Program-made: the position numbers and the translations under genes
Shown: one piece after another, positions 4,716 to 27,037 of the stretch
How positions within the stretch are numbered: position 1 is the first letter of the stretch
How the letters are laid out: each line of letters starts with the position of its first letter
The notes under the pieces: generated by a model
What the model was told of the DNA's origin: nothing
The model's input: the letters and a program-made list of their open reading frames with translations, nothing else
Databases searched by the model: none
Virus record (IMG/VR): IMGVR_UViG_3300025667_000002
Span: 1-37,283 of that record
Direction: 5' to 3' (one strand)
Source of the DNA: a virus
DNA length: 37,283 nucleotides

Positions 4716-4737
4716 AGTAGGTGTTTATATACTACTT
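4716..4737 (+). promoter_or_regulatory. TATA box inside an inverted repeat, promoter of the tail chaperone gene
   Basis: TTTATATAC (TTATATAC core at 4725, 29 nt before the ATG at 4754) is flanked by arms AGTAG (4716-4720) and CTACT. The whole 22-bp stretch is identical to 19234-19255, so both promoters may bind the same regulator. Confidence 0.75.
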
Positions 4738-4753
4738 TTTCTTTTTTATTATC

Positions 4754-14190: not shown

Positions 14191-14399
14191 ACAGGTATCT
14201 TCTTGTGTCTTGACTTGGTTCGCAACCTGGAGGAACAGCACGGACACTTGTTAATTATCTTTAGATACCATATGTCGTCACCTATGTCAGAGCAGGTGGT
14301 ACAACGAGATGCTGACATGTAAGCGGTCGCTGGATTGAGGTGCTGCATGCCGCGTTTGACACAGTCTCGTCTGCACTGATCACGACATGAGAAGGTCAT
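14187..14399 (-). CDS. Small zinc-ribbon protein
   Basis: 70 aa with CRDQCRRDC near the N-terminus, CTTC in the middle (about residues 33-36) and CPCC (about 52-55) followed by a basic tail (SSRLRTKSRHKK). The arrangement suggests a zinc ribbon that contacts nucleic acid. It is the last gene of the minus-strand group and starts 4 bp inside the HNH gene (ATGA), so it is translationally coupled to it. The gene family is not named, but small proteins of this type are common in archaeal viruses. Confidence 0.6.
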   Translation of the reverse strand: MTFSCRDQCRRDCVKRGMQHLNPATAYMSASRCTTCSDIGDDIWYLKIINKCPCCSSRLRTKSRHKKIPV

Positions 14400-14761
14400 T
14401 GAGAATGGTCCAGGTTACATTTTTTACGATTGCCTTTGGAACCGTTGCATCCGGAACATAGAATTTGTAAATTTTCTAACGAGAGTGAACCGTTAAGTAA
14501 TTTTTTATAGTAAGTTGTAGCAGGCAATCGTTTCTGTTTGGTAGTACTTACAGGTATTATGTGATCAAAGTTCAGATTCCACCACTCCGTGACACCGCAG
14601 CACACGCACTTGCCGCCTAGCAGATTGACCAGAATGATCTTTCTCTCTGACAGTCTTTTCATGTCATACGCGGTCTTGCCTGTCTTGTATTTCTTGTTGG
14701 ATCTGTAGCGAGTATTGTATCTCTTCTGATATGCGGCTTTCTCTTCCTTAGTACGCGTCAT
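14396..14761 (-). CDS. HNH endonuclease
   Basis: 121 aa. The N-terminal 45 residues are basic (AYQKRYNTRYRSNKKYK), a common DNA-contact extension. The HNH core is clear: CVCC (52-55), LNFDHIIPVS with Asp66-His67, then LCSGCNGSKGNR (residues 101-112) with Cys102, Cys105, Asn106 and Asn111, together the zinc-supported ββα-metal site. The protein may nick or cut DNA during replication or packaging, or may be a free-standing homing enzyme; terminase-linked HNH proteins usually lie next to the terminase, which is not so here. It begins one base after the stop of the 48-aa gene 14761-14907 (TGATG). Confidence 0.8.
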   Translation of the reverse strand: MTRTKEEKAAYQKRYNTRYRSNKKYKTGKTAYDMKRLSERKIILVNLLGGKCVCCGVTEWWNLNFDHIIPVSTTKQKRLPATTYYKKLLNGSLSLENLQILCSGCNGSKGNRKKCNLDHSQ

Positions 14762-14907
14762 CAGTCCAACCTCGACATCTTATTGGACGCATAGTGCGGG
14801 TACAGGTCTGGTATCAAAGCATGCATAAACAAGGCCATGCTCATTAGCATTGCACGTTTAAAATGTCTGACGTATGATATGTCGTGTTCTCTAAGATGTT
14901 TAATCAC
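14761..14907 (-). CDS. 48-aa protein resembling the DUF6356 family
   Basis: Starts at GTG 14907, exactly 28 nt downstream of a TTAAATAC box on this strand, so the transcript would be leaderless and the start codon is well supported. Pattern: HLREHDISYVRHFKRAM, then a hydrophobic helix LMSMALFMHALIPDLYP and a final ASNKM. The order His-Leu-x-Glu, Ser-Tyr-x-x-His, His-Ala-x-x-Pro and Ala-Ser recalls DUF6356-type small proteins of phages and bacteria; this is recalled from pattern, not searched. It is probably a membrane-associated helical protein of unknown function. It shares one base with the HNH gene start. Confidence 0.6.
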   Translation of the reverse strand: MIKHLREHDISYVRHFKRAMLMSMALFMHALIPDLYPHYASNKMSRLD

Positions 14908-14927
14908 ACAGGAAAATAGTTTTAGTA

Positions 14928-14936
14928 GTATTTAAA
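14928..14936 (-). promoter_or_regulatory. TATA box for the 14907 gene
   Basis: Read on the minus strand, TTTAAATAC; the TTAAATAC core begins at 14935, 28 nt before the GTG at 14907. It lies over the stop codon of the Hjc-like gene, giving the HNH cluster its own promoter. Confidence 0.75.
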
Positions 14937-15330
14937 AGTTGCGGTCAAACCATACTCCGGAATCATCACACTGTCTGAACTGAATTCCCGGAAATTTATT
15001 GTAAGCGTGTATGACTGTGAACTGTTCTGGCAGTATTCTTAACACGGCCGAGTGATATTTCTTTTCCCACTGTATAAACTCATAGTCCTCGGTAGGTGCG
15101 ATGGCATACTCACACAGTTCCAGGTTCTCTTTTGGCGACAGGTATGCACGATTCTTGTTAGACTTTAGACACTTGGCCTGTATGCCCAGCTTGACGTCTC
15201 CCTTGTATGCAAGCAGATCAAACATTCCCTTGGAAGCGTAAGCACGCTTGACCAGCCATCCTCTGTCAGTCAGATAGTCTCTTACTTCGTATTCAAACTG
15301 TCTGCCTATGTTGTATCCTTTGCCTACCAT
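14932..15330 (-). CDS. Hjc-like Holliday junction resolvase / PD-(D/E)XK nuclease
   Basis: 132 aa. The N-terminal half matches archaeal Hjc: GRQFEYEVRDYL (Glu13), GWLVKRAYASKGMFDLLAY (Arg29, Ser33, Asp38), and GIQAKCLK with Gln51-Ala-Lys53 at the (D/E)xK position. The catalytic acidic residue of that motif is replaced by Gln, a variant known in some PD-(D/E)XK families, so activity is likely but not certain. Such enzymes cut four-way junctions to debranch replicating DNA before packaging. It begins 7 bp inside the HExxH gene upstream and ends near the TATA box of the next cluster. Confidence 0.75.
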   Translation of the reverse strand: MVGKGYNIGRQFEYEVRDYLTDRGWLVKRAYASKGMFDLLAYKGDVKLGIQAKCLKSNKNRAYLSPKENLELCEYAIAPTEDYEFIQWEKKYHSAVLRILPEQFTVIHAYNKFPGIQFRQCDDSGVWFDRNF

Positions 15331-15608
15331 AGCCAGTCTTGTGATGCCCAGTTAATGTATTTAATTATAGTATGTTCTCTGTCATCTGACATGTCCTCTC
15401 TTTTCATTGCAACGTGCAACGACTCGTGCACTATCGTGTCTATCAGGTCCGCTTCCGTGTCATGTGCGGACAGATTAACCCATGCGTCAGTAGTGTCTGA
15501 ATACATCTCGCCTTTGGTATGTTCTTGATAGTTGCGCATCCTGAACAGGACGGTATATTCCTCCTCTCTTCTGTTACAGTCAGAACAATTATGGAACAAC
15601 TTTGTCAT
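15324..15608 (-). CDS. Small HExxH metalloprotease-like protein
   Basis: 94 aa. Residues 54-68 read LIDTIVHESLHVAMK: the zincin motif H61-E62-S-L-H65, with a downstream EH at about 78-79 that could give the third ligand. Two Cys at 8 and 11 (CSDC) near the N-terminus suggest an extra metal or disulfide. The length is close to minimal zincins such as those of the SprT/WSS1-like or phage DUF groups. It may process virion or host proteins or protein-DNA adducts; its place between the coiled-coil protein and resolvase favours a DNA role, but this is inference. Confidence 0.55.
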   Translation of the reverse strand: MTKLFHNCSDCNRREEEYTVLFRMRNYQEHTKGEMYSDTTDAWVNLSAHDTEADLIDTIVHESLHVAMKREDMSDDREHTIIKYINWASQDWLW

Positions 15609-15613
15609 ATTAG

Positions 15614-15865
15614 TTATATTCCTTGCTTACCTTTAGTAAGTTTTAAGAATTCCGTGACTAGTTCGTCTCTTTTACGAACCATCGCCTTGACTATCTCGCC
15701 ACCTTTTTCATATTCCTTGAGAACATGATTGTATTTTTTTGCTGTTTTGGCCAACTTTGGTTCCAGACGCCTCATTTGTTTTTGAACTGACTTGATATCC
15801 TTTTCCAGTTTGTTGATATTACGAGCATGAATAAAGCCCACCGAAGAAGAGCCTGCCTTATCCAT
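15614..15865 (-). CDS. Small coiled-coil protein
   Basis: 83 aa. Heptad helices run from residue 17 (INKLEKDIKSVQKQMRRLEPK) to the end (RKRDELVTEFLKLTKG), with a basic overall charge. No enzymatic motif. It has a TATA promoter at the leaderless spacing and heads the run of genes 15865 to 14932. It may be a DNA-binding or architectural helper for the nearby nucleases; not recognised. Confidence 0.55.
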   Translation of the reverse strand: MDKAGSSSVGFIHARNINKLEKDIKSVQKQMRRLEPKLAKTAKKYNHVLKEYEKGGEIVKAMVRKRDELVTEFLKLTKGKQGI

Positions 15866-15885
15866 ACTCTTGTATCAAAGAAGTA

Positions 15886-15895
15886 ATATATAAAG
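15886..15895 (-). promoter_or_regulatory. TATA box for the 15865 gene
   Basis: Read on the minus strand, CTTTATATAT; the TTATATAT core starts at 15893, 28 nt before the ATG at 15865. Confidence 0.75.
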
Positions 15896-15911
15896 AGGTA
15901 GGTTGGATAAA

Positions 15912-16085
15912 CTACTCTCTTAACTTATCCATTGTGGAAGCGTCGACTACCTTGACATCCATCTTGTTAGTGATAAAGAATGTCCAGTCATCAGGGAAAT
16001 ATATCTCCGACAGCCTTTGCTTCAGACCGTCCTTCATCTCGTCATCCCATGATTTAGGTACCGAGATTATTATGTTCTCAGTCAT
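15912..16085 (-). CDS. Small protein coupled to the PrimPol-MCM gene
   Basis: 57 aa from ATG 16085, which overlaps the helicase stop codon (ATGA); upstream in-frame starts would run deep into the helicase gene and are not favoured. The sequence begins TENIIISVPKSWDDEMKDGL, a short strand then an amphipathic helix, followed by DDWTFFITNKMDVKVVD, consistent with a small alpha/beta fold. No family is recognised. Translational coupling suggests a replication accessory role or interaction with the helicase. Confidence 0.5.
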   Translation of the reverse strand: MTENIIISVPKSWDDEMKDGLKQRLSEIYFPDDWTFFITNKMDVKVVDASTMDKLRE

Positions 16086-18625
16086 TGAAGATCTCCCAGT
16101 CTCATAGTCTTTACCTCTTTGGCTTCCTTCTCTTTTGACGTGGCAAATCCGCATGACTTTAAGGACTTTGTGAATATGTCCAGGGCAATCTTTACGTGTT
16201 CACCTGTTATGATGTCAGTTCTGTGCATCCTGGCAACCGAGTAGGCTATCATGACGACATCGTTGCGGGCTCTGTTAGTTAGCGGGGATTCTTTTTCATC
16301 ACCGTTGTCTCTCTGCCACTCCTGCATTGCCCTGTACTGTTCCTTGAACACCTGAGTGCCTTCCGGTGACATTACGGGATCGTATCGCTGTGCATCTGCT
16401 ATCCATATTCTCATCTCCTGTTTGGTCAGCATGTTGTTGTCTTTTATGTAGTCGGCCAGTCCGTTTGGAGCATTGATCAGTCCTTCTGAATCCAGCATGG
16501 CCTCGTTCTCTTCCAGCGTATTGTTGGTTAGCACGAAGATTAGCCCGAATCTGTCCAGCATTGTCGGTGCCAGGTTGGTGTTATCCTGTAGGGATTTGCT
16601 GGGATTCCATATGGATTTGACTGGGTTGCATGCCGCTATCAGTCTGACTCTGCACGGGTATGGGGTGTTGAATCCGTTCTTGTCGTAACGTGCTATGCCG
16701 TCTGTAAGAGGAGTGTGCAGTATTTCAGAGTCTATCTGAGACATCTTTTCAAACTCATCCATGGTTATGAACGAATCGTTTGCCCTTACTATCGGTCCTA
16801 TTGTCAGCTCTTTCTTACCTGAACCGTTGTCCTGTTGACCCAGCAGCAGACCTGCCTTGGATGCGGATGGCGATGATATGGAATGTCCTGTGCGGCTCAA
16901 TGATATTGCGGAGTTAAGCATCTCAGACTTTCCGGTACCCGCGTTTCCTATCAGCAATGTGTGCAGTTCTCGTCTGCCTGACTCGTTTCTCTTGCCTGAC
17001 AGTATGCTTGACAGGATGGCAAACTTTTCATTGTACCTGAACAGTATCTTTGGTGCTATTGATTCCACTATCTTTTCAATGCCTATGCTCTGAAACTTTG
17101 CCTCCAGCTCCAGAGTTGGTGCAGGTATTATTTCTGACTCTAGTATCTGCATGTCTATTACCTCAAGTGAGAACTTCATTACCTTCTTCTCGTCTATGAC
17201 GGAACGAACTATGTAGGTCATCTTGTACTCCGAGCCCGGCTGAACTATGCAGATGTTGGGCGAGTACAGAATGGCCTCAAAGTCAATGGGCGTGTTTGAA
17301 TCCTCGGACGTGGCCTGCTGTATTCTAATGAACTGTACGTCAGCGTCCACGCTTACATCCTTGTCATGTATCAGTATGTTAAAGTCGTTGTCACAAGTAC
17401 AGGAGCCTGCCACCTTTGGTGCTCCCAACTCACGGTACTCGTCGGCCACATACGTAACAGGTTTTACATTGCATCCGGCCGCACACTCGTAGGTTCTTTG
17501 CAACTCGTAAGGTATATGGTTTGATATGCCCACCACTATGACGTTGGATTCCATTGTTCTGTGCACGTATCTAGCGTTGATTTGATTAAGTTTTATCTTC
17601 TCGCCTATCTTTGATCTTAGCTCACCGTTTCTTTTAATGTTATACACGTTTTGCGGATGATCCTTTCTGCACTCCACTATGCCTACCTTGTCATACGTGG
17701 CATTATGATGAGTACATCTGAAAAGATTCTTTTGATATGATTCCCCCGTTGCCGTATCTATCGTAACAGGTATGACAAACTCTGCCTCTTTCTCCGCGTC
17801 TTTGAGTTCGAAATATGTAGGCTCGTCATTCATACGTATTTTAAACTGTGACATTGCTATTGCCAATACGTCTGACTCTGACTTTCCTTCCGGAAACTTT
17901 GAGTTAAAAAACAAGGCCTTCATCTTATAGTCCTCTAATGTTATGGATGTCTGAGGTACGTGCGCAAAGTATCTCTGCAACTCCCTGATTAAGGAGCCGC
18001 CTCTGTTGGTCCCTACGCCCATCTCTTCCAAAGGTATGTCATCCAGGGAACTAAGACTGCTTGTCTTGCCCAATATCTTGTCAAGTGACTCTTCTATGTA
18101 TTGAGAATTTGGTATATACCCCACCTTGTCGGTACCAACTATGTCTATCATGGAGCCGTCCTTATGTATTCCACCGGAACAGTATAGAATGTTCTTACCC
18201 ATGGACTTTACCTCGATCAGTTCCTTGTTCTTTGGGTTGATGGCCCTGTTCTTAAGAGGCTTGTCGGTGTATGACAGTATGTGACACTTTTGCTTGTTAT
18301 CGTGCTGTTCTACCAAAGTTTTACTTGCGGTTATGTCTACGCTGGTAGAGCACATGGCATTGGTACCGTCCAGATTGTCACAGTCTATGGCGTTCAGCCA
18401 CTTACCTCGGTGTTCTTCATTGTGGAATACCTCACCGCATATTATGGCCATGCCGTCCTTGAACATACCTTTTTCAATCCATTCGTTGTGCAGTTCCAGA
18501 CTGATTGGCGCTGCCTGGAATTCTTTCCACGTAACTAGCGGTTTTTTATTTCTTGTATTGGCTGGTATAACGTTGACACCCACTTCTAGACGCCAAAAGT
18601 TAGCCCATTCATTAGAGTTCTTCAT
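16082..18625 (-). CDS. Primase-polymerase (PrimPol/AEP) fused to MCM helicase
   Basis: 847 aa. N-terminal domain, residues about 1-185: a PrimPol-type archaeo-eukaryotic primase with WKEFQ, AIDCDN (Asp81, Asp83) for metal binding, HILSYTDKP around residue 115, and IEVKSMGKNILY at 137-148. A middle region with Cys/His clusters (C304, H307, C319; C381, C385, C409, C411) and OB-like strands precedes the AAA+ module: Walker A GNAGTGKS (560-567), Walker B ITMDEFE (620-626), sensor-1 AACNP (665-669) and arginine finger LDRFG (690-694), which are specific to MCM. One polypeptide thus primes and unwinds DNA, forming the core replicase. No DNA polymerase of its own is recognised, so host polymerase is presumably used. 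TATA promoter at 18646-18654, 28 nt before the ATG. Confidence 0.9.
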   Translation of the reverse strand: MKNSNEWANFWRLEVGVNVIPANTRNKKPLVTWKEFQAAPISLELHNEWIEKGMFKDGMAIICGEVFHNEEHRGKWLNAIDCDNLDGTNAMCSTSVDITASKTLVEQHDNKQKCHILSYTDKPLKNRAINPKNKELIEVKSMGKNILYCSGGIHKDGSMIDIVGTDKVGYIPNSQYIEESLDKILGKTSSLSSLDDIPLEEMGVGTNRGGSLIRELQRYFAHVPQTSITLEDYKMKALFFNSKFPEGKSESDVLAIAMSQFKIRMNDEPTYFELKDAEKEAEFVIPVTIDTATGESYQKNLFRCTHHNATYDKVGIVECRKDHPQNVYNIKRNGELRSKIGEKIKLNQINARYVHRTMESNVIVVGISNHIPYELQRTYECAAGCNVKPVTYVADEYRELGAPKVAGSCTCDNDFNILIHDKDVSVDADVQFIRIQQATSEDSNTPIDFEAILYSPNICIVQPGSEYKMTYIVRSVIDEKKVMKFSLEVIDMQILESEIIPAPTLELEAKFQSIGIEKIVESIAPKILFRYNEKFAILSSILSGKRNESGRRELHTLLIGNAGTGKSEMLNSAISLSRTGHSISSPSASKAGLLLGQQDNGSGKKELTIGPIVRANDSFITMDEFEKMSQIDSEILHTPLTDGIARYDKNGFNTPYPCRVRLIAACNPVKSIWNPSKSLQDNTNLAPTMLDRFGLIFVLTNNTLEENEAMLDSEGLINAPNGLADYIKDNNMLTKQEMRIWIADAQRYDPVMSPEGTQVFKEQYRAMQEWQRDNGDEKESPLTNRARNDVVMIAYSVARMHRTDIITGEHVKIALDIFTKSLKSCGFATSKEKEAKEVKTMRLGDLQ

Positions 18626-18645
18626 GTGTTATATTATAATGACTT

Positions 18646-18654
18646 GTATTTAAA
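18646..18654 (-). promoter_or_regulatory. TATA box for the PrimPol-MCM gene
   Basis: Read on the minus strand, TTTAAATAC; the TTAAATAC core begins at 18653, 28 nt before the ATG at 18625. It faces the plus-strand promoter at 18769, so this 173-bp gap is a divergent promoter. Confidence 0.8.
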
Positions 18655-18694
18655 TGTTTAACTTGCAAAGTCGATAGCTGGTTTTTCTTTCCTG

Positions 18695-18737
18695 GGTTCC
18701 ACACTATCTTTATGACTGTAAAACTGTGTGTGGTACC
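18695..18737. promoter_or_regulatory. Inverted-repeat element in the divergent promoter (copy 1)
   Basis: GGTTCCACAC (18695-18704) and GTGTGGTACC (18728-18737) are near-complementary 10-bp arms (one mismatch) separated by exactly 23 bp. The same element, with the same spacing and the same flanks (CTG before, CCG then AGAG after), recurs at 26533-26575 ahead of another early gene. Probably a regulator-binding site about 30 bp upstream of the TATA box. Confidence 0.6.
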
Positions 18738-18768
18738 GAGAAGAGAATAAAATATTATGACAAAAAGA

Positions 18769-18777
18769 TTTAAATAC
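18769..18777 (+). promoter_or_regulatory. TATA box for the 18799 gene
   Basis: TTTAAATAC; the TTAAATAC core at 18770 is 29 nt before the ATG at 18799. Confidence 0.8.
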
Positions 18778-18798
18778 AGGATGCTACACTGACAATAC

Positions 18799-19221
18799 AT
18801 GATGAAATTTCCTAAAAAAGAAGAAGGACTTGAACATGTACACGTAGACGGCTCGATTTTAGTTTGTCGTCCTACAGGTAAAACATGGCAAGGAAAGCCT
18901 ACACTCGCATGGTATCACAAGTCAAACGGTGAACAGGCAATGCGTTCAGTCAACGGAGTAGTATCATACATTCCATCCACAGCACCGGCAGCAAACGTCG
19001 AGAAAGGAGCAACCGCCCTGTCAGACATAGAGTCCGTACAGGTATCATCCACATCGGCAAAAGAGTTTGAAGGTGCAGTAAAGTTAGAGGCAGAGGTATT
19101 TGAAATGGCCTGGGGTATAGCACAAAAACGTTACCCACAAATGAACGTACAACTAGATGTCTTTGGAATGATTGTCAACTCAATCGTTATGAGACTGTTC
19201 GAAGCACGAAGGATCAGATAG
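18799..19221 (+). CDS. Early protein of unknown function
   Basis: 140 aa. The N-terminal 60 residues are beta-rich with aromatic residues (VDGSILVCRPTGKTWQGKPT, then LAWYHKSNGE), followed by a Ser/Ala linker and a helical C-terminal half (EGAVKLEAEVFEMAWGIAQKR, ending FEARRIR). A beta domain with exposed Trp/Tyr plus a helical tail would suit a single-strand DNA- or protein-binding factor, but there is no firm match. It heads the rightward early region opposite PrimPol-MCM, and its promoter carries the inverted repeat shared with 26642. Start: the TATA spacing selects ATG 18799; ATG 18802 is next. Confidence 0.5.
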   Translation: MMKFPKKEEGLEHVHVDGSILVCRPTGKTWQGKPTLAWYHKSNGEQAMRSVNGVVSYIPSTAPAANVEKGATALSDIESVQVSSTSAKEFEGAVKLEAEVFEMAWGIAQKRYPQMNVQLDVFGMIVNSIVMRLFEARRIR

Positions 19222-19233
19222 GTATATTCACGC

Positions 19234-19255
19234 AGTAGGTGTTTATATACTACTT
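19234..19255 (+). promoter_or_regulatory. TATA box in an inverted repeat, promoter of the 19272 gene
   Basis: TTTATATAC with AGTAG and CTACT arms, identical over 22 bp to 4716-4737. The TTATATAC core at 19243 lies 29 nt before the ATG at 19272, which is therefore chosen over the GTG at 19239 that would start within the box. Confidence 0.75.
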
Positions 19256-19271
19256 CCTTTTATTCTTTATT

Positions 19272-20024
19272 ATGAGTCACGATTCGGATGAAATTGATTC
19301 CGATTCAATCAGTGACGCAAATCTATTTAAAATAACATCAGAATTACAGAAACGTATGAGGGCAATGGCCAACACGGGACCTGCAAAAGAAATACGTATT
19401 CGCAACGATCCCAACACGCTAAAGGACTCAAAGTGGGGATGCAGCATGGCAGCGGAGTTGTCAAAGTTGTCAATAAAACTGGAACAGGAACACGAGGAAT
19501 CACACAACCATGCATTTTGTGACAAGGCTACCAAGGCAATAAGAATGACACGTGACAGAAGATTTACCACCACATATTCAAGATACCAGGCCATAGTAAT
19601 ACAGGCAGAGTTTACCAGATCACTTGCATCACTGGCGGCAGACGAGGTAGAGGTGCTAAACAGATGGGCAGTGTATGACAACGAGAAACAATGCAGGGAA
19701 TGCATCGACATGATGTCATGCAGGGCAGAGAAATGCACGCACGGATGCCATCAGTTCAGAAAAGAGATGACAACCAAGGGAATAGGCTGGGCCCAAAGAG
19801 AGAACGAGGAACTGGCCGCTTTGACAAGACACCTGGCCGCATTGAACTCAGACACGGACAACCTGTGTGACTTTATCAAGGTAATCATATACAATCGGCA
19901 TCTCAAGATGAACCAGGCAGACAAGAAGAACATCATGGCCAAGCACATCAACATAGACAAGTGCGACTCCTGCATATACTATACCTCAGAGAATCCAAAG
20001 TGGTTTTCAGAACATCTAGAGTGA
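19272..20024 (+). CDS. Cysteine-containing protein, unknown function
   Basis: 250 aa. Acidic Ser/Asp-rich start (SHDSDEIDSDSISD), then long helices (residues 15-140) with KITSELQKRMRAM and RYQAIVIQAEFTRSLASLAA. A Cys/His cluster around residues 144-163 (CRECIDMMSC, then CTHGCHQF) should bind zinc, and another pair CDSC lies near the C-terminus. The protein is more GC-rich in its codons than the neighbouring island. No family is recognised; it could be a zinc-stabilised scaffold or regulator. Its promoter is a copy of the one ahead of the tail chaperone gene. Confidence 0.5.
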   Translation: MSHDSDEIDSDSISDANLFKITSELQKRMRAMANTGPAKEIRIRNDPNTLKDSKWGCSMAAELSKLSIKLEQEHEESHNHAFCDKATKAIRMTRDRRFTTTYSRYQAIVIQAEFTRSLASLAADEVEVLNRWAVYDNEKQCRECIDMMSCRAEKCTHGCHQFRKEMTTKGIGWAQRENEELAALTRHLAALNSDTDNLCDFIKVIIYNRHLKMNQADKKNIMAKHINIDKCDSCIYYTSENPKWFSEHLE

Positions 20025-20038
20025 ACAAGGAATAAATA

Positions 20039-20048
20039 TTTATATAAC
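20039..20048 (+). promoter_or_regulatory. TATA box for the 20068 gene
   Basis: TTTATATAAC; the TTATATAA core at 20040 lies 28 nt before the ATG at 20068. Confidence 0.75.
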
Positions 20049-20067
20049 AGTATCGATAACAGTTGTC

Positions 20068-20535
20068 ATGAAATCATATAAACCTGACACATCTCTACAC
20101 GCCATTAAAAAAAGCGGAGTAGTAGGTACTAAATTAAAAAGAAACATAGATACAGAGGAAGACAAAGAGAGAAGAGACTTTATCAATTCACGCAGACTAA
20201 AGCCGATGGACGGCAGATACAAGATAGGCATGTGCGCATACGGGTCATGCAGAGAGGAATTCTATCTGAAGGGAGACTCTGGCTGCGGGTCCCGAAAATA
20301 TTGCAGACCTCATTCCGAGACGGTAAATCTTGCAAGACAAAAAAAATACAGGGCCGAGAACAAGTGGCTCATAAAGGCAAGAAACAAGAAATGGAAGAGT
20401 CAAAGACCGGGCTATGCGGCAGAACGGTACCAGAAGAACAAGGAAGAGATAAAGGCAAAGGCAAAGACATACCGTGAGAACAACAGAGAACTGATAAGGG
20501 CACGCAGGATTGCCAAGGAGCAAAGCAATGGGTAA
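20068..20535 (+). CDS. Zinc-finger protein with basic repeats
   Basis: 155 aa, very basic. Residues about 55-80 hold CAYGSCREEF, CGSRKYCRPH: a C-x4-C...C-x5-C-x2-H zinc site of the kind found with HNH/recombinase-like DNA binders. The second half is a helical stretch of Lys/Arg/Tyr-rich repeats (KKYRAENKWLIKARNKKWK, KNKEEIKAKAKTYRENNREL) that looks like a DNA- or RNA-contact rod. No nuclease residues are seen. It is probably a nucleic-acid-binding protein; transcriptional or packaging roles are equally possible. Leaderless TATA promoter. Its stop overlaps the next start. Confidence 0.55.
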   Translation: MKSYKPDTSLHAIKKSGVVGTKLKRNIDTEEDKERRDFINSRRLKPMDGRYKIGMCAYGSCREEFYLKGDSGCGSRKYCRPHSETVNLARQKKYRAENKWLIKARNKKWKSQRPGYAAERYQKNKEEIKAKAKTYRENNRELIRARRIAKEQSNG

Positions 20536-20833
20536 GCTGGCTGATCTTTGGAAGCTATTAGGCAATACGAGGGACGAAGAGGCCAGGGAAGAGATACGCA
20601 ACAAGATAAACGGCATTGAAAAGTGGTGCATAGACAACAAGTTTGGCGGATTTACGGAGGTAACGGACTTTACCAGGCCGAAGAAGACAGCCAAACATGG
20701 ACCGTTCACATATTATACGGTGTGTGGAAACTTTATGATACCGTTGAGTCAGTTCTGTTCAAAATGTGGCCTTGATACCCAGGGTATTTTGATGACTAAT
20801 CACGGGTTGATTTATATAGAGGTCAAGTCTTAG
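20528..20833 (+). CDS. Small protein with C-terminal zinc ribbon half
   Basis: 101 aa from ATG 20528, which overlaps the end of the previous gene; AAGGAG at 20515-20520 is a good ribosome-binding site 7 nt upstream, which decides this start. N-terminal helices (ADLWKLLGNTRDEEAREEI) lead to a C-terminal part with YTVCGNFM...FCSKCGLD, giving CxxC and a further Cys for metal. Unknown function, co-transcribed with 20068. Confidence 0.55.
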   Translation: MGKLADLWKLLGNTRDEEAREEIRNKINGIEKWCIDNKFGGFTEVTDFTRPKKTAKHGPFTYYTVCGNFMIPLSQFCSKCGLDTQGILMTNHGLIYIEVKS

Positions 20834-20842
20834 GTAATCATA

Positions 20843-21019
20843 ATGAACATAGTAAAACAAAACGACAAACTAAACACGCTGCTAAGCACTGTATATGATT
20901 TGGCAGATAAAATGTGTGACATAGAAGACAACGACCTTAATAATTTAATTGGTGACGTTGTAGAGCAGACTGAAGGACTTGTAGACAACAATGATACAAT
21001 GTTGGGAGACTTGAAATAA
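20843..21019 (+). CDS. 58-aa acidic helical protein
   Basis: Starts at ATG 20843, 9 nt after the previous stop, and ends with TAA that overlaps the following ATG (TAATG at 21017-21021). The peptide is acidic and helical (QNDKLNTLLSTVYDLADKM, then DNDLNNLIGDVVEQTEGL). The tight spacing and overlap with its neighbours, and continued use of the same codons, support it as a gene. Function unknown. Confidence 0.5.
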   Translation: MNIVKQNDKLNTLLSTVYDLADKMCDIEDNDLNNLIGDVVEQTEGLVDNNDTMLGDLK

Positions 21020-21168
21020 TGTCTCTCATGTTAGGCGATCAAGAAAATGACATAATTGAATCATGCATCAGACAGTATGACGTGATAGTGGACCTGCTGG
21101 AGATGGAAGGACTGGCCTCTTTCCAGGAATCACTCTGCGTAATGGAGTACATAGTCGGAGATAAATAG
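21019..21168 (+). CDS. 49-aa acidic helical protein
   Basis: ATG 21019 overlaps the previous stop, and TAG at 21166-21168 is directly followed by the eight-G tract of regulatory block A. The peptide is a single acidic amphipathic helix (IIESCIRQYDVIVDLLEMEG, then LASFQESLCVMEYIV) with two Cys. Likely the last gene of the 20068 transcription unit; function unknown. Confidence 0.5.
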   Translation: MSLMLGDQENDIIESCIRQYDVIVDLLEMEGLASFQESLCVMEYIVGDK

Positions 21169-21169
21169 A

Positions 21170-21580
21170 GGGGGGGGTGTAGCCAGAATAACACTTTTTT
21201 TTGGCAATGACACAATGACATCGTGAGGGACCAAAATAAAAAAAAATTTCCACCTACGGGTACAGTATAGCGATTTTTCTCGGATTTTTTATGGTATATA
21301 AGGTTTACTCATACTTAAGTGTTTTTTAGTCAACTAAATTTAGCTCTATGGTCAAACTTTGTTCACTCTTTTTTCTCATAGTGCAGACTTAGGTTTTTTC
21401 AAGTAAAAATAATATGCAAAATTGGCATATTAGATATTTGATAAATTAACTTAACATTATCAACGGTTTTAGTGTAACTTAATTCACTCTACCATTGATA
21501 TTAAATCTTATACCACGTTTACCCGTATGTTTTGGGGGTAAATGGTCTTATAGTATATTGTTTTAATGATAATATGCAAA
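21170..21580 (+). repeat. Regulatory block A, first copy of a duplicated non-coding segment
   Basis: About 400 bp without a gene. In order it holds: eight G (21170-21177) then TGTAGCCAGAAT; an A9 tract (21238-21246) followed by TTT; TAGTCAACTAAATTTAGCTC (21327-21346); and the promoter segment 21518-21554 running into ATG 21574. The same landmarks appear in the same order in block B (24564-24935), with 1 mismatch in 20 and 2 in 37 in the best-kept parts, while the stretches between have drifted. AT-rich throughout. It must control the amidoligase operon and may also hold a small RNA or a replication signal. Confidence 0.7.
21518..21554 (+). promoter_or_regulatory. Operator and TATA-like promoter of the amidoligase gene
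   Basis: TTTACCC (21518-21524) and GGGTAAA (21536-21542) form a 7-bp inverted repeat with an 11-bp gap, followed by TTATAGT (21548-21554), whose start lies 26 nt before ATG 21574. Nearly identical to 24873-24909. Likely operator plus core promoter. Confidence 0.65.
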
Positions 21581-22884
21581 AAGCAATATCAAAACATACT
21601 AAAAATTATATTAAATATGTAGGTGTAGAACTAGAAGGATATTGGCATGACGGACATGACGATTTAAAACATGACGGAAGTGTGCATTTTGAAGATGTCT
21701 ATAATGAAGAATGTGACGGATGTTGCAGAGATAATTGCGAATGCTATTCATATTGCGAATGCTCGATTTGTCAAGCGTGTGAAATATGCGATAATATAAC
21801 CAATGAATGCAAGTGTGACGAATGCTTAATTTGTTCTGACTGTAATAATCATTTTGAATCATGTGAATGCACTATTGAATCTATATGTAAAAAAGAAACT
21901 TGTACGGATAATGATGTTTGTAATGAATGCATGGATAATTTCCAAGAATTACAAAACTTAGATTATAGTTGTGATGATTCAGGCACTAGTTATAATAATT
22001 GTGAGATGGATTGCTCATGTTCTTGCGAATGCGAATGCGAATGTGATAACAGCGTAGTAGGCGAAGTATCTAGCCACAAACTAAAAATAAATGAAGTTGA
22101 AAAATGGATTTTAGACAACTATCCTAATGATGTTAATAGTTCAACGGGTTTACATATTCACCTAAGTTTTAAAAATGACAAACAAGATTATAGCGTTATA
22201 GCCACTGAAGAATTTTATGAGCATTTTATCAATGAATTAAAACTATGGGCTAAAGAAAGAAATATCAATAAAGATTCACGATTTATTAAAAGGCTTAATG
22301 GCGTGGAATATGCCAAAAGATTATTTTTAGCTGAAGAACAAATTAACGGGAATAACGAAAGATATACCCAAATAAATTACTGTTATCATAAGTTTAACGG
22401 CACTGTTGAAATTAGAGTTGGAAATATGTTTAACGATAAAACTATTTCAGTAGAATATGTACAAAGGGTTATAAGAATATTTAACGAATATTTATCTAGA
22501 GTTAAACCAATAGTTTATAGATTAGATGAAGTTTTCGAATGCAGCAATAACAAAAAGTTTGACTTGAAACTTAGAATAAAACAGCAAAAAGACGGATTAA
22601 TGATATATGCAAAATCCGCACAATTCGAGAATAATTTTAAACATTATAATTCATTTACTAGATGTATTAATAGTGACGCATTATTAGAACTTGATGAATT
22701 AAATGACGGGGTTAAGCCTAATATCTCATTCTTACGCCTAAAGGGTTTACAACATGGCAGCAAACTATTTATCAAAGGGCTTTATACTAAAAACATGGTT
22801 TATAATTACCTTGACAGACTGCATGACACATTGACTTATGATGTGAGAATATTGGATAATGATTTAGGAGAGTTTAAAGAATAA
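21574..22884 (+). CDS. Predicted amidoligase (COOH-NH2 ligase, ATP-grasp-like) with a cysteine-rich insert
   Basis: 436 aa. Family marks of Amidoligase_2 proteins: GVELEGYW (17-24), KHDGSV (32-37), STGLHIHLSF (190-199), RYTQINY (263-269) and NGTVEIRVGNMF (275-286), with the essential-looking E, D, H and R residues kept. Between the DGSV strand and the GLHIH region lies an insert, residues 47-157, with 29 cysteines in CxC and CxxC steps (for instance CECYSYCECSIC and CSCSCECECEC), which should bind several metal ions or clusters. Such ligases join an amine to a carboxyl, often with ammonia from a GAT-II partner, and the next gene is one. The start at ATG 21574 follows the promoter; an upstream TTG (21532) lies in the operator and is rejected. 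Confidence 0.75.
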   Translation: MQKAISKHTKNYIKYVGVELEGYWHDGHDDLKHDGSVHFEDVYNEECDGCCRDNCECYSYCECSICQACEICDNITNECKCDECLICSDCNNHFESCECTIESICKKETCTDNDVCNECMDNFQELQNLDYSCDDSGTSYNNCEMDCSCSCECECECDNSVVGEVSSHKLKINEVEKWILDNYPNDVNSSTGLHIHLSFKNDKQDYSVIATEEFYEHFINELKLWAKERNINKDSRFIKRLNGVEYAKRLFLAEEQINGNNERYTQINYCYHKFNGTVEIRVGNMFNDKTISVEYVQRVIRIFNEYLSRVKPIVYRLDEVFECSNNKKFDLKLRIKQQKDGLMIYAKSAQFENNFKHYNSFTRCINSDALLELDELNDGVKPNISFLRLKGLQHGSKLFIKGLYTKNMVYNYLDRLHDTLTYDVRILDNDLGEFKE

Positions 22885-23717
22885 TGTGCGTTATATCCAT
22901 AATTGAGAATGAGAATCAAATCCCTAGTTACAAGATGTCTAAAAAGATGTTTACCCATAACCCTCATGGAAGCGGATTAATGGTATATGATGAATTGAAA
23001 AAACATATTTATGTGAAAAAAGGAATGGATTTAAAGCAAATTAACAAGATGACATTAAAACAAAAGGCTAAAGGTAATTTAAACATGATTCAGCATTATA
23101 GAATTGCTTCAGTAGGTTCACACGATAATAAACTGTTAAATCAAGGTTTTGCAATAGGCAATAACATTAAAAATAAATTAGAATTTACAACAAATAATGA
23201 CGTTTTGGCACATAATGGCACGATTGACATGGATATATTAAACGACATGGCAACAAACATAATGATTAAAAACCCTAATGCTGTTTATCCCAGTGGAGAA
23301 TTATCAGATACTTTGTTATTATCTTGGATTTTGTACTTTGTAGATTATTCCGTTTTGAATATGTTTACTAGTGATAACAGATTTACCATAATGAATGGAA
23401 AAACTGGAAAAATAACGAAATACGGTAATTGGAATAACGTAAAAGACAAAAAGCATAATCTGATAACGTCTAATAATTACTTTGATGATTCAATATTATA
23501 TGATAATGTTACTTATCTTGATGATTTTAATGATAGTTACATGGGTGACTACTTGACAAAAGATGAAGATAAAGAGTTAAAAAGACTTTATAAGAAATAT
23601 AACAATATGTTTGACAGTGAAAAAGACATTATAGAACAATACCTTAGCTACGGTATGTCTGTATATGACATTGAAGAACAAATAAAATCTGAAGATGTCT
23701 ATGGTGGTTATGTATAA
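22884..23717 (+). CDS. Class II glutamine amidotransferase (Ntn hydrolase)
   Basis: 277 aa, start ATG 22884 overlapping the amidoligase stop (TAATG). The second residue is Cys, the N-terminal nucleophile exposed after Met removal. Further family marks: NPHGSGLMVY (26-35), HYRIASVGSH (71-80), HNGTI (110-114), SDTLL (141-145). These are the glutaminase-site residues of the GAT-II fold that releases ammonia from glutamine. The C-terminal 100 residues are Asp/Lys-rich and lack the usual synthase domain, so the enzyme must hand ammonia to a separate partner, the overlapping amidoligase. Together they are predicted to amidate or modify a peptide, lipid or cell-wall acid of the host. Confidence 0.8.
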   Translation: MCVISIIENENQIPSYKMSKKMFTHNPHGSGLMVYDELKKHIYVKKGMDLKQINKMTLKQKAKGNLNMIQHYRIASVGSHDNKLLNQGFAIGNNIKNKLEFTTNNDVLAHNGTIDMDILNDMATNIMIKNPNAVYPSGELSDTLLLSWILYFVDYSVLNMFTSDNRFTIMNGKTGKITKYGNWNNVKDKKHNLITSNNYFDDSILYDNVTYLDDFNDSYMGDYLTKDEDKELKRLYKKYNNMFDSEKDIIEQYLSYGMSVYDIEEQIKSEDVYGGYV

Positions 23718-23718
23718 A

Positions 23719-23823
23719 ATGACACAAAAATGTAAAAAATGCGGGGGTATTATGTATATTAACCAAATAAGTGATGATGAATTTGAGGCGGAGTGTGATT
23801 CATGCGGGTATTTGATAAATTGA
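23719..23823 (+). CDS. 34-aa zinc ribbon protein
   Basis: ATG 23719 follows the amidotransferase stop by one base. Contains CKKCGGIM and, 20 residues on, CDSCGYL: two CxxC knuckles of a classic zinc ribbon. Its length is a minimal ribbon with no extra domain. It overlaps the start of the next gene, as do most genes of this island. Confidence 0.6.
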   Translation: MTQKCKKCGGIMYINQISDDEFEAECDSCGYLIN

Positions 23824-23918
23824 GTGAAATTAATTGTATTAATAAATGTGGCAATTTAACCCTATACGGTTATGATGTTTGTGAAGAATGTTTAAACGTG
23901 GAGTTAGATTCAAGATGA
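23802..23918 (+). CDS. 38-aa zinc finger protein
   Basis: ATG 23802 lies inside the previous gene. The peptide carries C-x3-C (CINKC) and C-x2-C (CEEC) separated by about 12 residues, consistent with a small zinc knuckle. It overlaps the following gene at 23915 (ATGA). Supported by metal-ligand pattern and by the chain of overlaps. Confidence 0.5.
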   Translation: MRVFDKLSEINCINKCGNLTLYGYDVCEECLNVELDSR

Positions 23919-24070
23919 TTATACATAAGATAATACTATCTAAAGAAGATGATGAAGGAAATATAACGTATTATACCACTAATTCAGATTATGACCATTC
24001 TTTATTATGTGATTTAATAGATGATGATGATTTAAATGAAATAAACACTAATGAGGTATTAGATAAATGA
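23915..24070 (+). CDS. 51-aa acidic protein
   Basis: From ATG 23915, overlapping the stop of the zinc finger gene; an upstream ATG at 23888 in the same frame is possible but would overlap more. Starts IIHKIILSKEDDEGN, strand then charged loop, and ends with an Asp/Glu-rich helix (DLIDDDDLNEI). Function unknown. Confidence 0.5.
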   Translation: MIIHKIILSKEDDEGNITYYTTNSDYDHSLLCDLIDDDDLNEINTNEVLDK

Positions 24071-24180
24071 ATAAACCAAATTACAAAAAAGCATATTTTA
24101 TTTTAACTGAATATTTTGATTCTATCCCAGATGAATTAAAAGCCCAAGTAGATAAAGAATTAAAGGAATGTGGATTATAA
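24067..24180 (+). CDS. 37-aa helical protein
   Basis: ATG 24067 overlaps the previous stop (ATGA) and TAA ends at 24180. Contains KKAYFILTEYFDSIPDELKA, two short amphipathic helices around a Pro. No family known; kept because it continues the overlapping series. Confidence 0.45.
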   Translation: MNKPNYKKAYFILTEYFDSIPDELKAQVDKELKECGL

Positions 24181-24181
24181 T

Positions 24182-24289
24182 ATGATTTGTAATAATTGTG
24201 ACAAATTCACGTTAAACCATAATCTAACATTTAGCATAAACGAAGGATTCTTATGTAGGATATGCGAAAATAAAAGAGGTAATAAATAA
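24182..24289 (+). CDS. 35-aa zinc finger protein
   Basis: Starts one base after the previous stop. Contains CNNC near the N-terminus and CRIC near the C-terminus about 20 residues apart, the ribbon spacing, and a Lys/Arg tail. Its stop overlaps the next ATG (TAATG). Confidence 0.55.
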   Translation: MICNNCDKFTLNHNLTFSINEGFLCRICENKRGNK

Positions 24290-24462
24290 TGTTAAGCGAT
24301 AAATATAAAGAAGAAATGGAACAATTAAGGCTAAAAATTGGAAATAGATTAACACCTAAACAAGTAAAAGAGTATAGAGATAATATCAAACAAACAAAAA
24401 AGAATAATAATGATTATAATAATATGATTGATTTAATAGAGAATGTGGATTATGATAATTAA
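24289..24462 (+). CDS. 57-aa charged helical protein
   Basis: ATG 24289 overlaps the previous stop. Sequence is Lys/Glu/Asn-rich helix (DKYKEEMEQLRLKIGN, then LTPKQVKEYRDNIKQTKKNN) with an acidic end. Looks like a short coiled coil; unknown role. Confidence 0.45.
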   Translation: MLSDKYKEEMEQLRLKIGNRLTPKQVKEYRDNIKQTKKNNNDYNNMIDLIENVDYDN

Positions 24463-24577
24463 CGCTTTAACTCATGGCATAATGCTAGTGTCCTTTAGTT
24501 GTGTCATATCATTAGGCATTGTATGCTTCATTGAAGAATTAAGACAAATCATCAAAGATAATAGGGGGGGGTATTAG
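24452..24577 (+). CDS. 41-aa single-span membrane protein
   Basis: ATG 24452 lies inside the previous gene. Residues 8-27 (HGIMLVSFSCVISLGIVCFI) are one membrane helix, followed by EELRQIIKD. The end of the gene is encoded by the eight-G tract (AGG GGG GGG) of block B, so any length change in that tract would alter the C-terminus. Confidence 0.45.
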   Translation: MIINALTHGIMLVSFSCVISLGIVCFIEELRQIIKDNRGGY

Positions 24578-24935
24578 CAGAATGATGACTTTAAACAATA
24601 ACTGTATTATGAGTTTATTAAAATCACGAAAAAAAAAAATTTTTGACATGGCAGTAAACAATAAAAATAATTTAAGAGATTTGACCAGCATTTCCAGTCC
24701 AGTCGTTTTATATACTAAATTCGCCTTTTATACCCCTTATGTGAAAATAGATTCACTAAGTAGTCAATTAAATTTAGCTCGATTGCATGGTATAGAGATT
24801 ACCCATAAACCCCCATAATTTTTAGCATTAAGTAATTTCAACATTGAAATATTGTTTAAGTCTTATCACCCTTTTACCCGTATGTTTTGTTGGTAAATGG
24901 TCTTATAGTGTAATGATATAGTGATAATATGCAAA
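24564..24935 (+). repeat. Regulatory block B, second copy of the duplicated segment
   Basis: Landmarks in the same order as block A: eight G (24564-24571) then TTAGCAGAAT; a long A11T5 tract (24629-24644); TAGTCAATTAAATTTAGCTC (24761-24780); the operator/promoter segment 24873-24909; and GATAATATGCAAAAA, where both copies also share the first codons (Met-Gln-Lys) of the gene that follows. The region 24578-24928 is taken as non-coding; a 78-codon frame exists but has no counterpart in block A. Confidence 0.7.
24873..24909 (+). promoter_or_regulatory. Operator and TATA-like promoter of the 24929 gene
   Basis: TTTACC (24873-24878) and GGTAAA (24892-24897) arms, then TTATAGT (24903-24909) starting 26 nt before ATG 24929. 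Two mismatches in 37 bp against 21518-21554. Confidence 0.65.
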
Positions 24936-25135
24936 AATTCGACAAGAACCTTAACTTGATTGCAAAATCAATGGTTCAAAATCAAAAGGCAATTAATGAG
25001 ATAAGAGCTGGGAATATTTTAAACGCTGAATCATTAATCATGCAATCACAAAGCATTTTAAAAATTGGAATGCTAGACATAGACGTAAATGCCAAAAAAG
25101 CAATATTAGATATTGTAATGGAAAAAAGACTATGA
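24929..25135 (+). CDS. 68-aa helical protein
   Basis: First gene after block B. Helical, with QKFDKNLNLIAKSMVQNQKA and AILDIVMEKRL. No metal or catalytic motif. Its first three codons match those of the amidoligase because the duplicated block reaches into both genes. Function unknown; probably under the same control as the amidoligase. Confidence 0.55.
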   Translation: MQKFDKNLNLIAKSMVQNQKAINEIRAGNILNAESLIMQSQSILKIGMLDIDVNAKKAILDIVMEKRL

Positions 25136-25290
25136 CAAAATACCATGCAATAGTAAAAGAATTGGACACAATGGAAATAGTAGAGGATATACCATGCCAA
25201 AACGAGAGAGAAGCTCACGAATGTAAAAGAGGCATGATGATAAACGGAAATACTCGTGGATTTGTGTTCTTAGTTGAGGCTAGAAATTGA
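25132..25290 (+). CDS. 52-aa protein, unknown
   Basis: ATG 25132 overlaps the previous stop (ATGA). Sequence begins KYHAIVKELDTMEIVEDIP with a strand-helix feel, has CQNEREAHEC (two Cys, His) and ends with a strand GFVFLVEARN. Compact alpha/beta domain; unknown role. Confidence 0.5.
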   Translation: MTKYHAIVKELDTMEIVEDIPCQNEREAHECKRGMMINGNTRGFVFLVEARN

Positions 25291-25493
25291 CAAGTCAACA
25301 AGATGATATATCACGAGCTGAATTAAATTATGCAAAAGGCTTAATGAATAATCTAATGATTGAATTGGGAGAATTAAGAGAGACAAACACAAACTTACAC
25401 CATGAGTTAATAGTTAATCAAAAACTCATAACACGAAAAACGAACGAATTGGAACATTTAGTGCATAATATCGGAGCTATACCTAATGAGTGA
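25287..25493 (+). CDS. 68-aa coiled-coil protein
   Basis: TTG 25287 overlaps the previous TGA. Helical throughout: AELNYAKGLMNNLMIELGEL and NQKLITRKTNELEHLVHNI form heptads. Unknown function; overlaps the next gene by 8 bp. Confidence 0.5.
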   Translation: MTSQQDDISRAELNYAKGLMNNLMIELGELRETNTNLHHELIVNQKLITRKTNELEHLVHNIGAIPNE

Positions 25494-25752
25494 CAAAGAA
25501 GCATATCAAGGTTCTGCCAATTATGATACTTGGAATGTATCTCTTTGGTTATGGAATGACGAACAACAATATAACCATTGTAGAGCATTAGTGAATATGC
25601 GTAAACCCGCACAAAAATTAAGGGAATACGTTAAAGATTTAATTCATGATGAATGTATTACGGATAAAATCAACATCAAAAACGTGCAATTCTTGGAAAT
25701 TGTAAAAGACTTTAGACAACATAACAAAGAATGTAGGGAAATAAAGGCATGA
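25486..25752 (+). CDS. Phage DUF7249-like protein
   Basis: 88 aa. Carries SANYDTWNVSLWLWNDEQQY, the conserved core of small phage proteins of the NYeTWnvaLW type (DUF7249), found in many tailed viruses with no known function. The rest is a charged helix (KLREYVKDLIHDE) and ends with a Lys/Arg tail. It supports viral ancestry for the island. Recognition is by the aromatic motif alone. Confidence 0.65.
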   Translation: MSDKEAYQGSANYDTWNVSLWLWNDEQQYNHCRALVNMRKPAQKLREYVKDLIHDECITDKINIKNVQFLEIVKDFRQHNKECREIKA

Positions 25753-25856
25753 ATAAACCATGCAAAAAATGCGGCAAGATGTCAAGTGATAAACATTATA
25801 CCTGTATTCATGATTGGTTAAGTGTTGAATTAGAGGGTAAATGGTCTAATGACTAA
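25749..25856 (+). CDS. 35-aa zinc-binding protein
   Basis: ATG 25749 overlaps the previous stop (ATGA). CKKCGKM and, later, YTCIHDW supply Cys/His ligands for one zinc. The last codons contain GGGTAAATGGTCT (25835-25847), a 13-base match to the promoter segment of blocks A and B, which may be a relic of a third copy. Confidence 0.5.
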   Translation: MNKPCKKCGKMSSDKHYTCIHDWLSVELEGKWSND

Positions 25857-25936
25857 CCTTTTTTTTAAATTAACTTCATTCATTTAGTCAAGCGTCATTA
25901 TACTAGATTATTAAACTATATTTAAACCTATTAAAG

Positions 25937-25951
25937 TTAAGTGTCACTTAA
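25937..25951. other. Perfect 15-bp palindrome
   Basis: TTAAGTG-T-CACTTAA in the AT-rich part of the 785-bp gap; two 7-bp arms about a single base. Protein-binding site candidate. Confidence 0.5.
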
Positions 25952-26070
25952 TCCCGTTATACCATTACTTAACTATATCATTAAACCATAATCTTATTAA
26001 CATATTGAACCATTCTTAATACTTCATAACACCGTTATAATTGAGCTCTTTAATTTGATCCCAGTAGTCC

Positions 26071-26340
26071 GCGATTCACCCCTATATAACCCTTTCGGAA
26101 CAGCGATACACTTATATACCAAGAGAATGGCCTGATTCTACCCTATATGAATGTTTCGATTCCGCAGCCACAGTATATAACCTTTTTGGTTTTCCGGTGG
26201 ACTTATATAGCTGGCTATTCCTCTATAAGGTGACGCATAAATTTTTTGCGGCCTCGGGGGCATGATGAACTAGGATTCGCTAAAAATGGCCTATATGAAT
26301 GTTTCTAAAAAAGAGCCTCCGCGATACCTTTATATACAAG
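26071..26340. repeat. Tandem array of TATA-like boxes at about 30-bp steps
   Basis: TATA cores start at 26083, 26113, 26144, 26174 and 26204 (steps 30, 31, 30, 30), weaken near 26236, and reappear at 26292 and 26331. Several units begin with GCGAT or similar 10-12 bp before the TATA (26071, 26103, 26321), and two share CCTATATGAATGTTTC (26142 and 26290). About three helical turns per unit would put the boxes on one face of the DNA. Confidence 0.65.
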
Positions 26341-26364
26341 TCTGCCCCCTACGTCTTCCATACT

Positions 26365-26382
26365 AAATTGTAAATCCTCAAA
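26365..26382 (+). repeat. 18-bp direct repeat, copy 1
   Basis: AAATTGTAAATCCTCAAA; identical to 26500-26517, 135 bp downstream. Copy 1 lies about 34 bp after the last TATA box of the array, near where a transcript from it would begin. Confidence 0.7.
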
Positions 26383-26499
26383 TTACGCCTGGTTGAATCC
26401 GTAGATTCGTAGGTGTCATTATACATGACTGGAGTGGAAACGGTGGTGCGGCTACACGATATTCTGATTTCACATCGAACTGGGCCCTCGGAATACCAG

Positions 26500-26517
26500 A
26501 AATTGTAAATCCTCAAA
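26500..26517 (+). repeat. 18-bp direct repeat, copy 2
   Basis: AAATTGTAAATCCTCAAA; identical to 26365-26382. No TATA box lies at the matching place upstream, so the repeat is not simply a transcription start. Confidence 0.7.
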
Positions 26518-26532
26518 CTTTATTCTCTGCTG

Positions 26533-26575
26533 GGTTCTACACATAGTATTGTAGGCGTAAGATTTGTGTGGAACC
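26533..26575. promoter_or_regulatory. Inverted-repeat element (copy 2) before the 26642 gene
   Basis: GGTTCTACAC (26533-26542) and GTGTGGAACC (26566-26575) with a 23-bp gap; the arms also pair one base further in, and the only imperfection is a T-G. Same arms, spacing and flanks as 18695-18737. Lies about 37 bp upstream of the TATA box. Confidence 0.65.
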
Positions 26576-26611
26576 GTATAGAGAAAAACTAAATATCGAC
26601 TTTGTAAAACA

Positions 26612-26620
26612 CTTAAATAC
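26612..26620 (+). promoter_or_regulatory. TATA box for the 26642 gene
   Basis: CTTAAATAC; the TTAAATAC core at 26613 lies 29 nt before ATG 26642, and only 14 nt before the earlier ATG at 26627, so 26642 is chosen. Confidence 0.75.
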
Positions 26621-26641
26621 AACTAGATGATAACCATAGTC

Positions 26642-27037
26642 ATGAATAACGAGAGGTACCGTAAGGTAGATGGTAAAACCAAGAAACGGATTTTATACCT
26701 TTTAGAGAGGTCGTGTATGGAGTGCGGTGAACACAGAACAAAGGCACTCCGAATCATGCCCAAATGCTATATCAATGATGTCCAGTGTTTAAACTGTATA
26801 AAATTTAGGACCAGGAAGCAACTAAAGGGGATAAGAACACCTACATGTGCATCCAACTCAGTCATATACAGATCTCTAAAGTTAGCAAACAGGTCCAGAA
26901 AGTGTACTTATTGTGACGAGCACAGGTTACATTGCGTCAGGTTCGAGAAAGGCAGGTCCAATCTAAAGTGTTATAACTGTTACGAGGTAGAGAAAGTCCG
27001 CAAGTATGACGCCTGGGTAAATACAAACTATCCTTAA
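26642..27037 (+). CDS. Zinc-finger protein, possible viral regulator
   Basis: 131 aa from ATG 26642. Two zinc modules: CMECGEHRTKAL...CLNC (residues about 25-55) and CTYCDEHRLHCVRF...CYNC (about 87-117), both of the CxxC-E-H...CxxC treble-clef kind seen in HNH-related DNA binders, but without the HN catalytic residues. Very basic, with RTRKQLKG and SRK stretches. It has the promoter that carries the inverted repeat shared with 18799, so it may be an early DNA-binding regulator. Function is inferred from fold only. Confidence 0.55.
   Translation: MNNERYRKVDGKTKKRILYLLERSCMECGEHRTKALRIMPKCYINDVQCLNCIKFRTRKQLKGIRTPTCASNSVIYRSLKLANRSRKCTYCDEHRLHCVRFEKGRSNLKCYNCYEVEKVRKYDAWVNTNYP

Follow-up and report, generated by a model that had tools for sequence, protein, structure and literature searches.

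Two diverged copies of a promoter module with paired inverted repeats upstream of mcm and a zinc-finger gene, a candidate operator pair in a tailed virus

Two inverted repeats with 10-bp arms and a 23-bp gap occur in the 37,283-base virus record IMGVR_UViG_3300025667_000002, the whole of which is called the window here (G000 in comparisons with other viruses). Site 1 lies between the helicase gene mcm and the divergent gene 18799, and site 2 lies before a gene starting at 26642 that encodes a predicted zinc-finger protein. The locus raises the question of why two distant promoters of one virus should carry the same symmetric element. The answer favoured here, with a probability of roughly 0.6, is that the two sites form a virus-specific operator pair for a dimeric regulator, which would co-regulate mcm and the early operon headed by 26642 by way of a duplicated early-promoter module.

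Both repeats had been described in an initial annotation of the window, and they are confirmed letter for letter: GGTTCCACAC-23-GTGTGGTACC at site 1 (18695-18737) and GGTTCTACAC-23-GTGTGGAACC at site 2 (26533-26575), each exact. The same annotation was right to place TTAAATAC, a TATA-type box, 29 nt before the ATG of both 18799 and 26642. The 10-23-10 repeats are beyond chance. Nowhere else in the record does the spaced motif occur, dinucleotide shuffles gave 0.02 matches at three or fewer mismatches, and no shuffle reached the observed number. At both sites the symmetry widens to imperfect arms of about 23 bp, including TTATTCTCT/AGAGAAAAA, and the TATA-type box follows the arms at a distance of 32-41 bp. 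A search of viral contigs for the spaced motif, suggested in the initial annotation, found the exact motif again in L003, a near-identical relative of the window virus. This is the only other viral contig matched once an exact match in L004, a chance one within GGACC-rich repeats, is set aside.

The likeness of the two sites extends beyond the arms. When the site 1 region is reverse-complemented (18751-18644), it aligns with 26519-26622 at 74% identity over 108 columns (BLAST E value 5e-12); the local alignment score is 111, whereas 2000 dinucleotide shuffles reached no more than 39. The alignment spans the repeat, AGAGAAAAAC, TATCGACTTTG and TTAAATAC, and ends at CATGAA, the start region of both mcm and 26642. 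Judged from this alignment, sites 1 and 2 each hold a diverged copy of a single promoter module about 108 bp long, the two copies facing opposite ways; conservation is strongest in the arms, in the outer AGAGAA and in the promoter blocks, and weaker in the gap. Since the homology is in inverted orientation, it is with the mcm promoter, not that of 18799, that the 26642 promoter pairs. On sequence grounds site 1 belongs mainly to mcm, a primase-MCM gene on the minus strand, and site 2 to 26642; gene 18799, which flanks site 1 on its other side, is a possible further target. A dimeric regulator acting on the replication-side gene and on 26642 had been proposed at the outset. A dimer-type site common to two early promoters is the part of that proposal for which the sequence argues best, and its target needs correcting in part, from 18799 to mcm. 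The gap sequences had likewise been described as different, which holds in the orientation then used (7 of 23 positions matching) but not with site 1 reverse-complemented (13 of 23; p about 0.005). A scan of viral sequences with TATCGACTTTG...TTAAATAC gave L003 as the only relevant match.

The record carries an exact 99-bp direct terminal repeat (1-99 = 37185-37283), and the genome is therefore probably complete. The sole annotated match of its large terminase (TerL), at 34% identity, is the terminase of the Nitrososphaera provirus Pro-Nvie1. Together with an archaeal MCM, Hjc and TATA boxes, this match points to a small archaeal-type tailed virus with an archaeal host group. Terminase scans gave about 20 contigs at 75-100% identity, the first clade, and a second clade at 45-50%. 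A genome scan by TerL alignment gave a single contig, in a Marinimicrobiota bin, and a single-sequence scan with MCM gave no match. Within the first clade the mcm side and the zinc-finger side are both present in G000, G019 and G020; L037 offers the mcm side alone, and on the zinc-finger side G008 hardly differs from G019. The mcm gene of the window, a fusion of Prim-Pol and MCM on the minus strand, has only about 28% identity to the shorter MCM of G019, L037 and G020, and the early genes around it (14187-18625, minus strand) are rearranged, which suggests a replaced replication module.

The pairing of the two regions recurs in G019 and G020, with other sequences. In G019 the strongest internal repeat (53 bp, 91%) joins the region upstream of mcm to that upstream of the 26642 homolog. 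In G020 an 80-bp repeat (84%) joins the corresponding mcm-side and zinc-finger-side regions and, leaving out the end repeat, ties as strongest with one repeat inside structural genes. The initial annotation had looked to relatives for such recurrence, and there it was found. The sequence of the paired element differs among the three viruses but agrees within each. The local score of the mcm side against the virus's own zinc-finger side was 109 in G000, 119 in G019 and 111 in G020 (shuffle maxima 54, 79 and 72), whereas scores against other viruses were at most 43, 48 and 43, respectively, the 48 leaving out G008. The mcm side of L037, set against the zinc-finger region of G019/G008, scored 77, inside the shuffle range. 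The second TerL clade (G040, G056 and G023) yielded no non-coding repeat linked to mcm, and the pairing therefore seems limited to the first.

A long inverted repeat stands upstream of the 26642 homolog in six of seven other viruses (G004, G005, G008, G010, G011 and G019; p 0.003-0.007 each), which amounts to only five independent cases because G008 and G019 are near-identical there. The arm sequences differ between viruses, with the outer letters turning over fully and both arms changing together, and mean arm identity is 44% between related viruses as against 79-80% within one virus. A core, GGTTC/GAACC, is loosely common to several viruses. Measured in a common register, the gap between cores is 25 bp in G004, 27 bp at both window sites, 46 bp in G010, 134 bp in G005, and exactly 101 bp in G011, in G019 at both promoters and at the mcm site of L037. 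It is striking that the 101-bp gap stays constant across viruses and between mcm and zinc-finger sites. The sites with this gap in G011, G019 and L037 (loci L014, L023, L027 and L037) also display ATCRTAAAAGNATTTTTTT beside the distal arm. Helical phasing of the arm spacings was considered and set aside: it gave p 0.02 in the first register, and by a hand estimate was not significant in the consistent one (25, 27, 46, 101, 134).

Because the arms change between viruses yet match among the sites of any one virus, the regulator is probably encoded by the virus. In an operator pair, a symmetric, probably dimeric DNA-binding protein would sit on both arms of each site and would either promote or hinder recruitment of host TBP, TFB and RNA polymerase at both promoters together. 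One virus-specific protein would thereby set the output of the helicase gene plus the zinc-finger operon, that is, 26642 and the genes behind it. In G005, G011 and G019 an arm abuts or overlaps the TATA-type box, and there the bound protein may occlude the box. Repression or negative feedback is by analogy the more likely sign of control, since most known regulators of archaeal viruses are repressors and many are autoregulated (PMC5569661).

The leading, if tentative, candidate for the regulator is the 26642 zinc-finger protein itself, which would then be autoregulating. Its family displays two CxxCxExRxKAL...CxNC units with eight invariant cysteines, and the predicted structure consists of two treble-clef-like units, each a beta pair plus a helix, at a mean predicted local distance difference test score (pLDDT) of 78. 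The protein matched no family in Pfam, and the model gave no Foldseek match at an E value below 0.3. All viruses in which a protein of the family was found share this gene order. The family is fast-evolving, with a mean identity of 36% versus 83% and 91% for two other genes.

Several observations weigh against this picture. Arm identity correlates weakly with 26642-protein identity, at r 0.43 (p 0.06), and scarcely less with two control proteins, at 0.31 and 0.34; covariation of protein and arms is at most suggestive. The paired element is kept in G020, where the 26642 homolog is absent, and a different regulator would therefore act there. G009 has a gene of the 26642 family and no significant upstream repeat (p 0.56), and the distance from arm to TATA box varies among viruses. 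In a test of length only, the repeats at window site 2 and at mcm of G019 and L037 fall short of significance (p 0.08-0.14); the p value that the test gives for the window mcm region reflects its two divergent TATA boxes, not the inverted repeat. The case in the window is carried by the exact arms common to both sites.

Replication origins, neutral duplication and RNA hairpins are each less likely than an operator pair. The foremost of the alternatives, although unlikely, is that the sites are replication origins or initiator-binding sites at which a viral or host protein loads the helicase, with promoters overlapping the origins. Archaeal origins have AT-rich unwinding regions between inverted boxes beside an initiator gene (PMC4010727). 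Among the upstream regions examined, one copy of the element lies at or just before mcm in G019, G020 and L037, and between the arms at mcm of G019 and L037 runs a very AT-rich stretch, the core gap being 101 bp, as it is at the zinc-finger sites of G019 and G011. It is because of this AT-rich DNA between boxes adjoining mcm in G019 and L037 that the explanation is retained. In the window, however, there is no Orc1/Cdc6 gene (no PF09079 match), the gap is just 23 bp, and the homology spans promoter blocks up to the start codon. Nor is the consensus core of origin boxes in excess there, with six scattered near-matches versus 3.7 expected and neither site matching. GC skew runs without a sharp switch at either site, which is weak evidence because skew here tracks gene direction.

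Neutral or recent duplication of one promoter, leaving a repeat without function of its own, would by itself yield shared sequence, and the two module copies are clearly homologous. It is made improbable by the pattern of conservation, in which the arms are kept better than the gap, and by the symmetry retained during sequence turnover; nor does one neutral event explain why the same two regions are paired, with different sequences, in three divergent viruses. A compound reading, a long shot, would make the paired element an operator and a replication-initiation site at once. One fast-evolving viral zinc protein with two treble clefs would bind both copies, couple helicase expression to origin choice and drive the concerted evolution of the sites.

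A host regulator binding the sites in place of a viral one is very improbable. Host factors such as Sta1 do act on viral promoters (PMC5569661), and the loosely common arm core would suit one; the contrast between 44% arm identity across related viruses and 79-80% within a virus fits a co-evolving viral protein better. Equally improbable is that the repeats work as hairpins in the RNA, within a leader or a small RNA. In favour of this, G-U-type changes separate some arms, and the site 2 repeat could be transcribed, since eight viruses conserve a block some 250 bp before 26642 that has a TATA-type box of its own. The reading was rejected because an excess of G-U departures is missing (G-U 13 versus A-C 7 over nine sites, no clear excess); moreover, both repeats lie upstream of TATA boxes, the mcm-side one would need a transcript begun in the divergent gene, there is no Rfam match, and the upstream block shows no covarying stem.

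The closest known case for an operator pair is that of the virus-specific early-promoter sequences of Sulfolobales viruses. Early and anti-defence genes of these viruses carry virus-specific regulatory sequences, some with inverted repeats, for which a viral repressor is inferred; examples are SIRV2 with Aca8, and SMV2 with inverted repeats over the B recognition element (BRE) (PMC11065993). As there, a regulatory sequence around the TATA box and BRE recurs at several promoters within a virus and is not the same from one virus to the next, and inverted repeats of that type have been interpreted as repressor sites. In the window, two promoters share the module (E value 5e-12), the TATA-type core lies 28-29 nt before the ATG, and the sequences agree within the virus. 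The present case differs from the Sulfolobales type in that its targets are a replicative helicase and the zinc-finger operon of a tailed virus, each genome carries just two copies, the separation of the arms reaches 134 bp and, in the window, the box lies 32-41 bp downstream of the arms.

Other systems share single traits. F55 of SSV1 is one small viral regulator serving several early promoters as well as its own, as the candidate here may be, but it is a ribbon-helix-helix protein on tandem repeats over the BRE and transcription start site (PMC5569661), whereas the sites here are inverted repeats and the candidate is a zinc protein of treble-clef-like build. The viral/plasmid protein Stf76 of pSSVx binds two sites in its own promoter and is thought to be autoregulatory; it has a winged-helix fold, and its abstract does not mention a second target in a replication gene (PMC4027180). 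Archaeal origin recognition boxes (ORB) resemble the sites in that inverted boxes close to a replication gene enclose AT-rich DNA and in that the box sequence is lineage-specific (PMC4010727). ORB origins have orc1/cdc6 alongside; here there is neither orc1/cdc6 nor a general box core, promoter blocks lie inside the module, and the copies number two.

A literature search on gene control in this virus group, whose nearest annotated relative is the Nitrososphaera provirus, found almost nothing. A switch for the helicase gene and zinc-finger operon, with constant symmetry and pairing and changing letters, offers a concrete place to seek the first regulator of such a virus. If the operator-pair reading is true, these viruses also provide a natural series for the joint change of a DNA-binding protein and its sites. 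Coordinates of the elements and genes discussed are collected in Table 1.

Table 1. Features of the two promoter regions in the window.
Feature	Position	Strand	Basis
Promoter module copy 1 (mcm promoter)	18644..18751	-	74% identity to copy 2, E 5e-12, score 111 vs shuffle maximum 39
Inverted repeat, site 1	18695..18737; arms 18695-18704, 18728-18737; imperfect symmetry to 18682-18750	-	symmetry and motif search
TATCGACTTTG block, copy 1, common to mcm and 26642 promoters	18666..18676	-	alignment
TTAAATAC TATA-type box of mcm, 28 nt before ATG	18646..18653	-	
mcm, N-terminal Prim-Pol plus MCM helicase, 847 amino acids	16082..18625	-	Pfam MCM 4e-32, MCM_lid 8e-10, Prim-Pol 3e-05
TTAAATAC of divergent gene 18799, 29 nt before ATG	18770..18777	+	
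Gene 18799, far side of site 1, without family match; homologs in G019, L037, G020	18799..19221	+	
Promoter module copy 2 (zinc-finger gene promoter)	26519..26622	+	alignment to copy 1
Inverted repeat, site 2	26533..26575; arms 26533-26542, 26566-26575; imperfect symmetry to 26520-26588	+	symmetry and motif search
TATCGACTTTG block, copy 2	26594..26604	+	alignment
TTAAATAC TATA-type box of zinc-finger gene, 29 nt before ATG at 26642	26613..26620	+	
Zinc-finger gene, two CxxC...CxNC units, first gene after site 2, candidate regulator	26642..27037	+	eight invariant Cys in seven relatives; predicted structure

Additional promoter-like and repeated sequences are found elsewhere in the window. The conserved non-coding block upstream of 26642 lies at 26316-26385 (plus strand), includes CGATACCTTTATATA...CATACCAAATTGTAAATC, and is possibly a small RNA or a second promoter. 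A viral scan with this upstream block (CATACYAAATTGTAAATC) gave, among the matches listed, new contigs that were all unrelated and without the element. A motif of the TAATTACTTCTTGTAAT type, without a TATA box, precedes several structural genes by about 35 nt (2846, 3752, 5985, 11435, 13060, 13387 and 35552, all on the plus strand) and is probably a late promoter; relatives carry ACTTCTRTTTAT at similar positions. Just before leaderless starts, AGTAGGTGTTTATATACTACT forms a palindrome around the TATA box and is common to three promoters, at 1638-1679, 4716-4757 and 19234-19275 (plus strand). An 82-nt repeat with 85% identity lies in and before small genes at 21501-21582 and 24856-24937 (plus strand), with a partial third copy near 25830.

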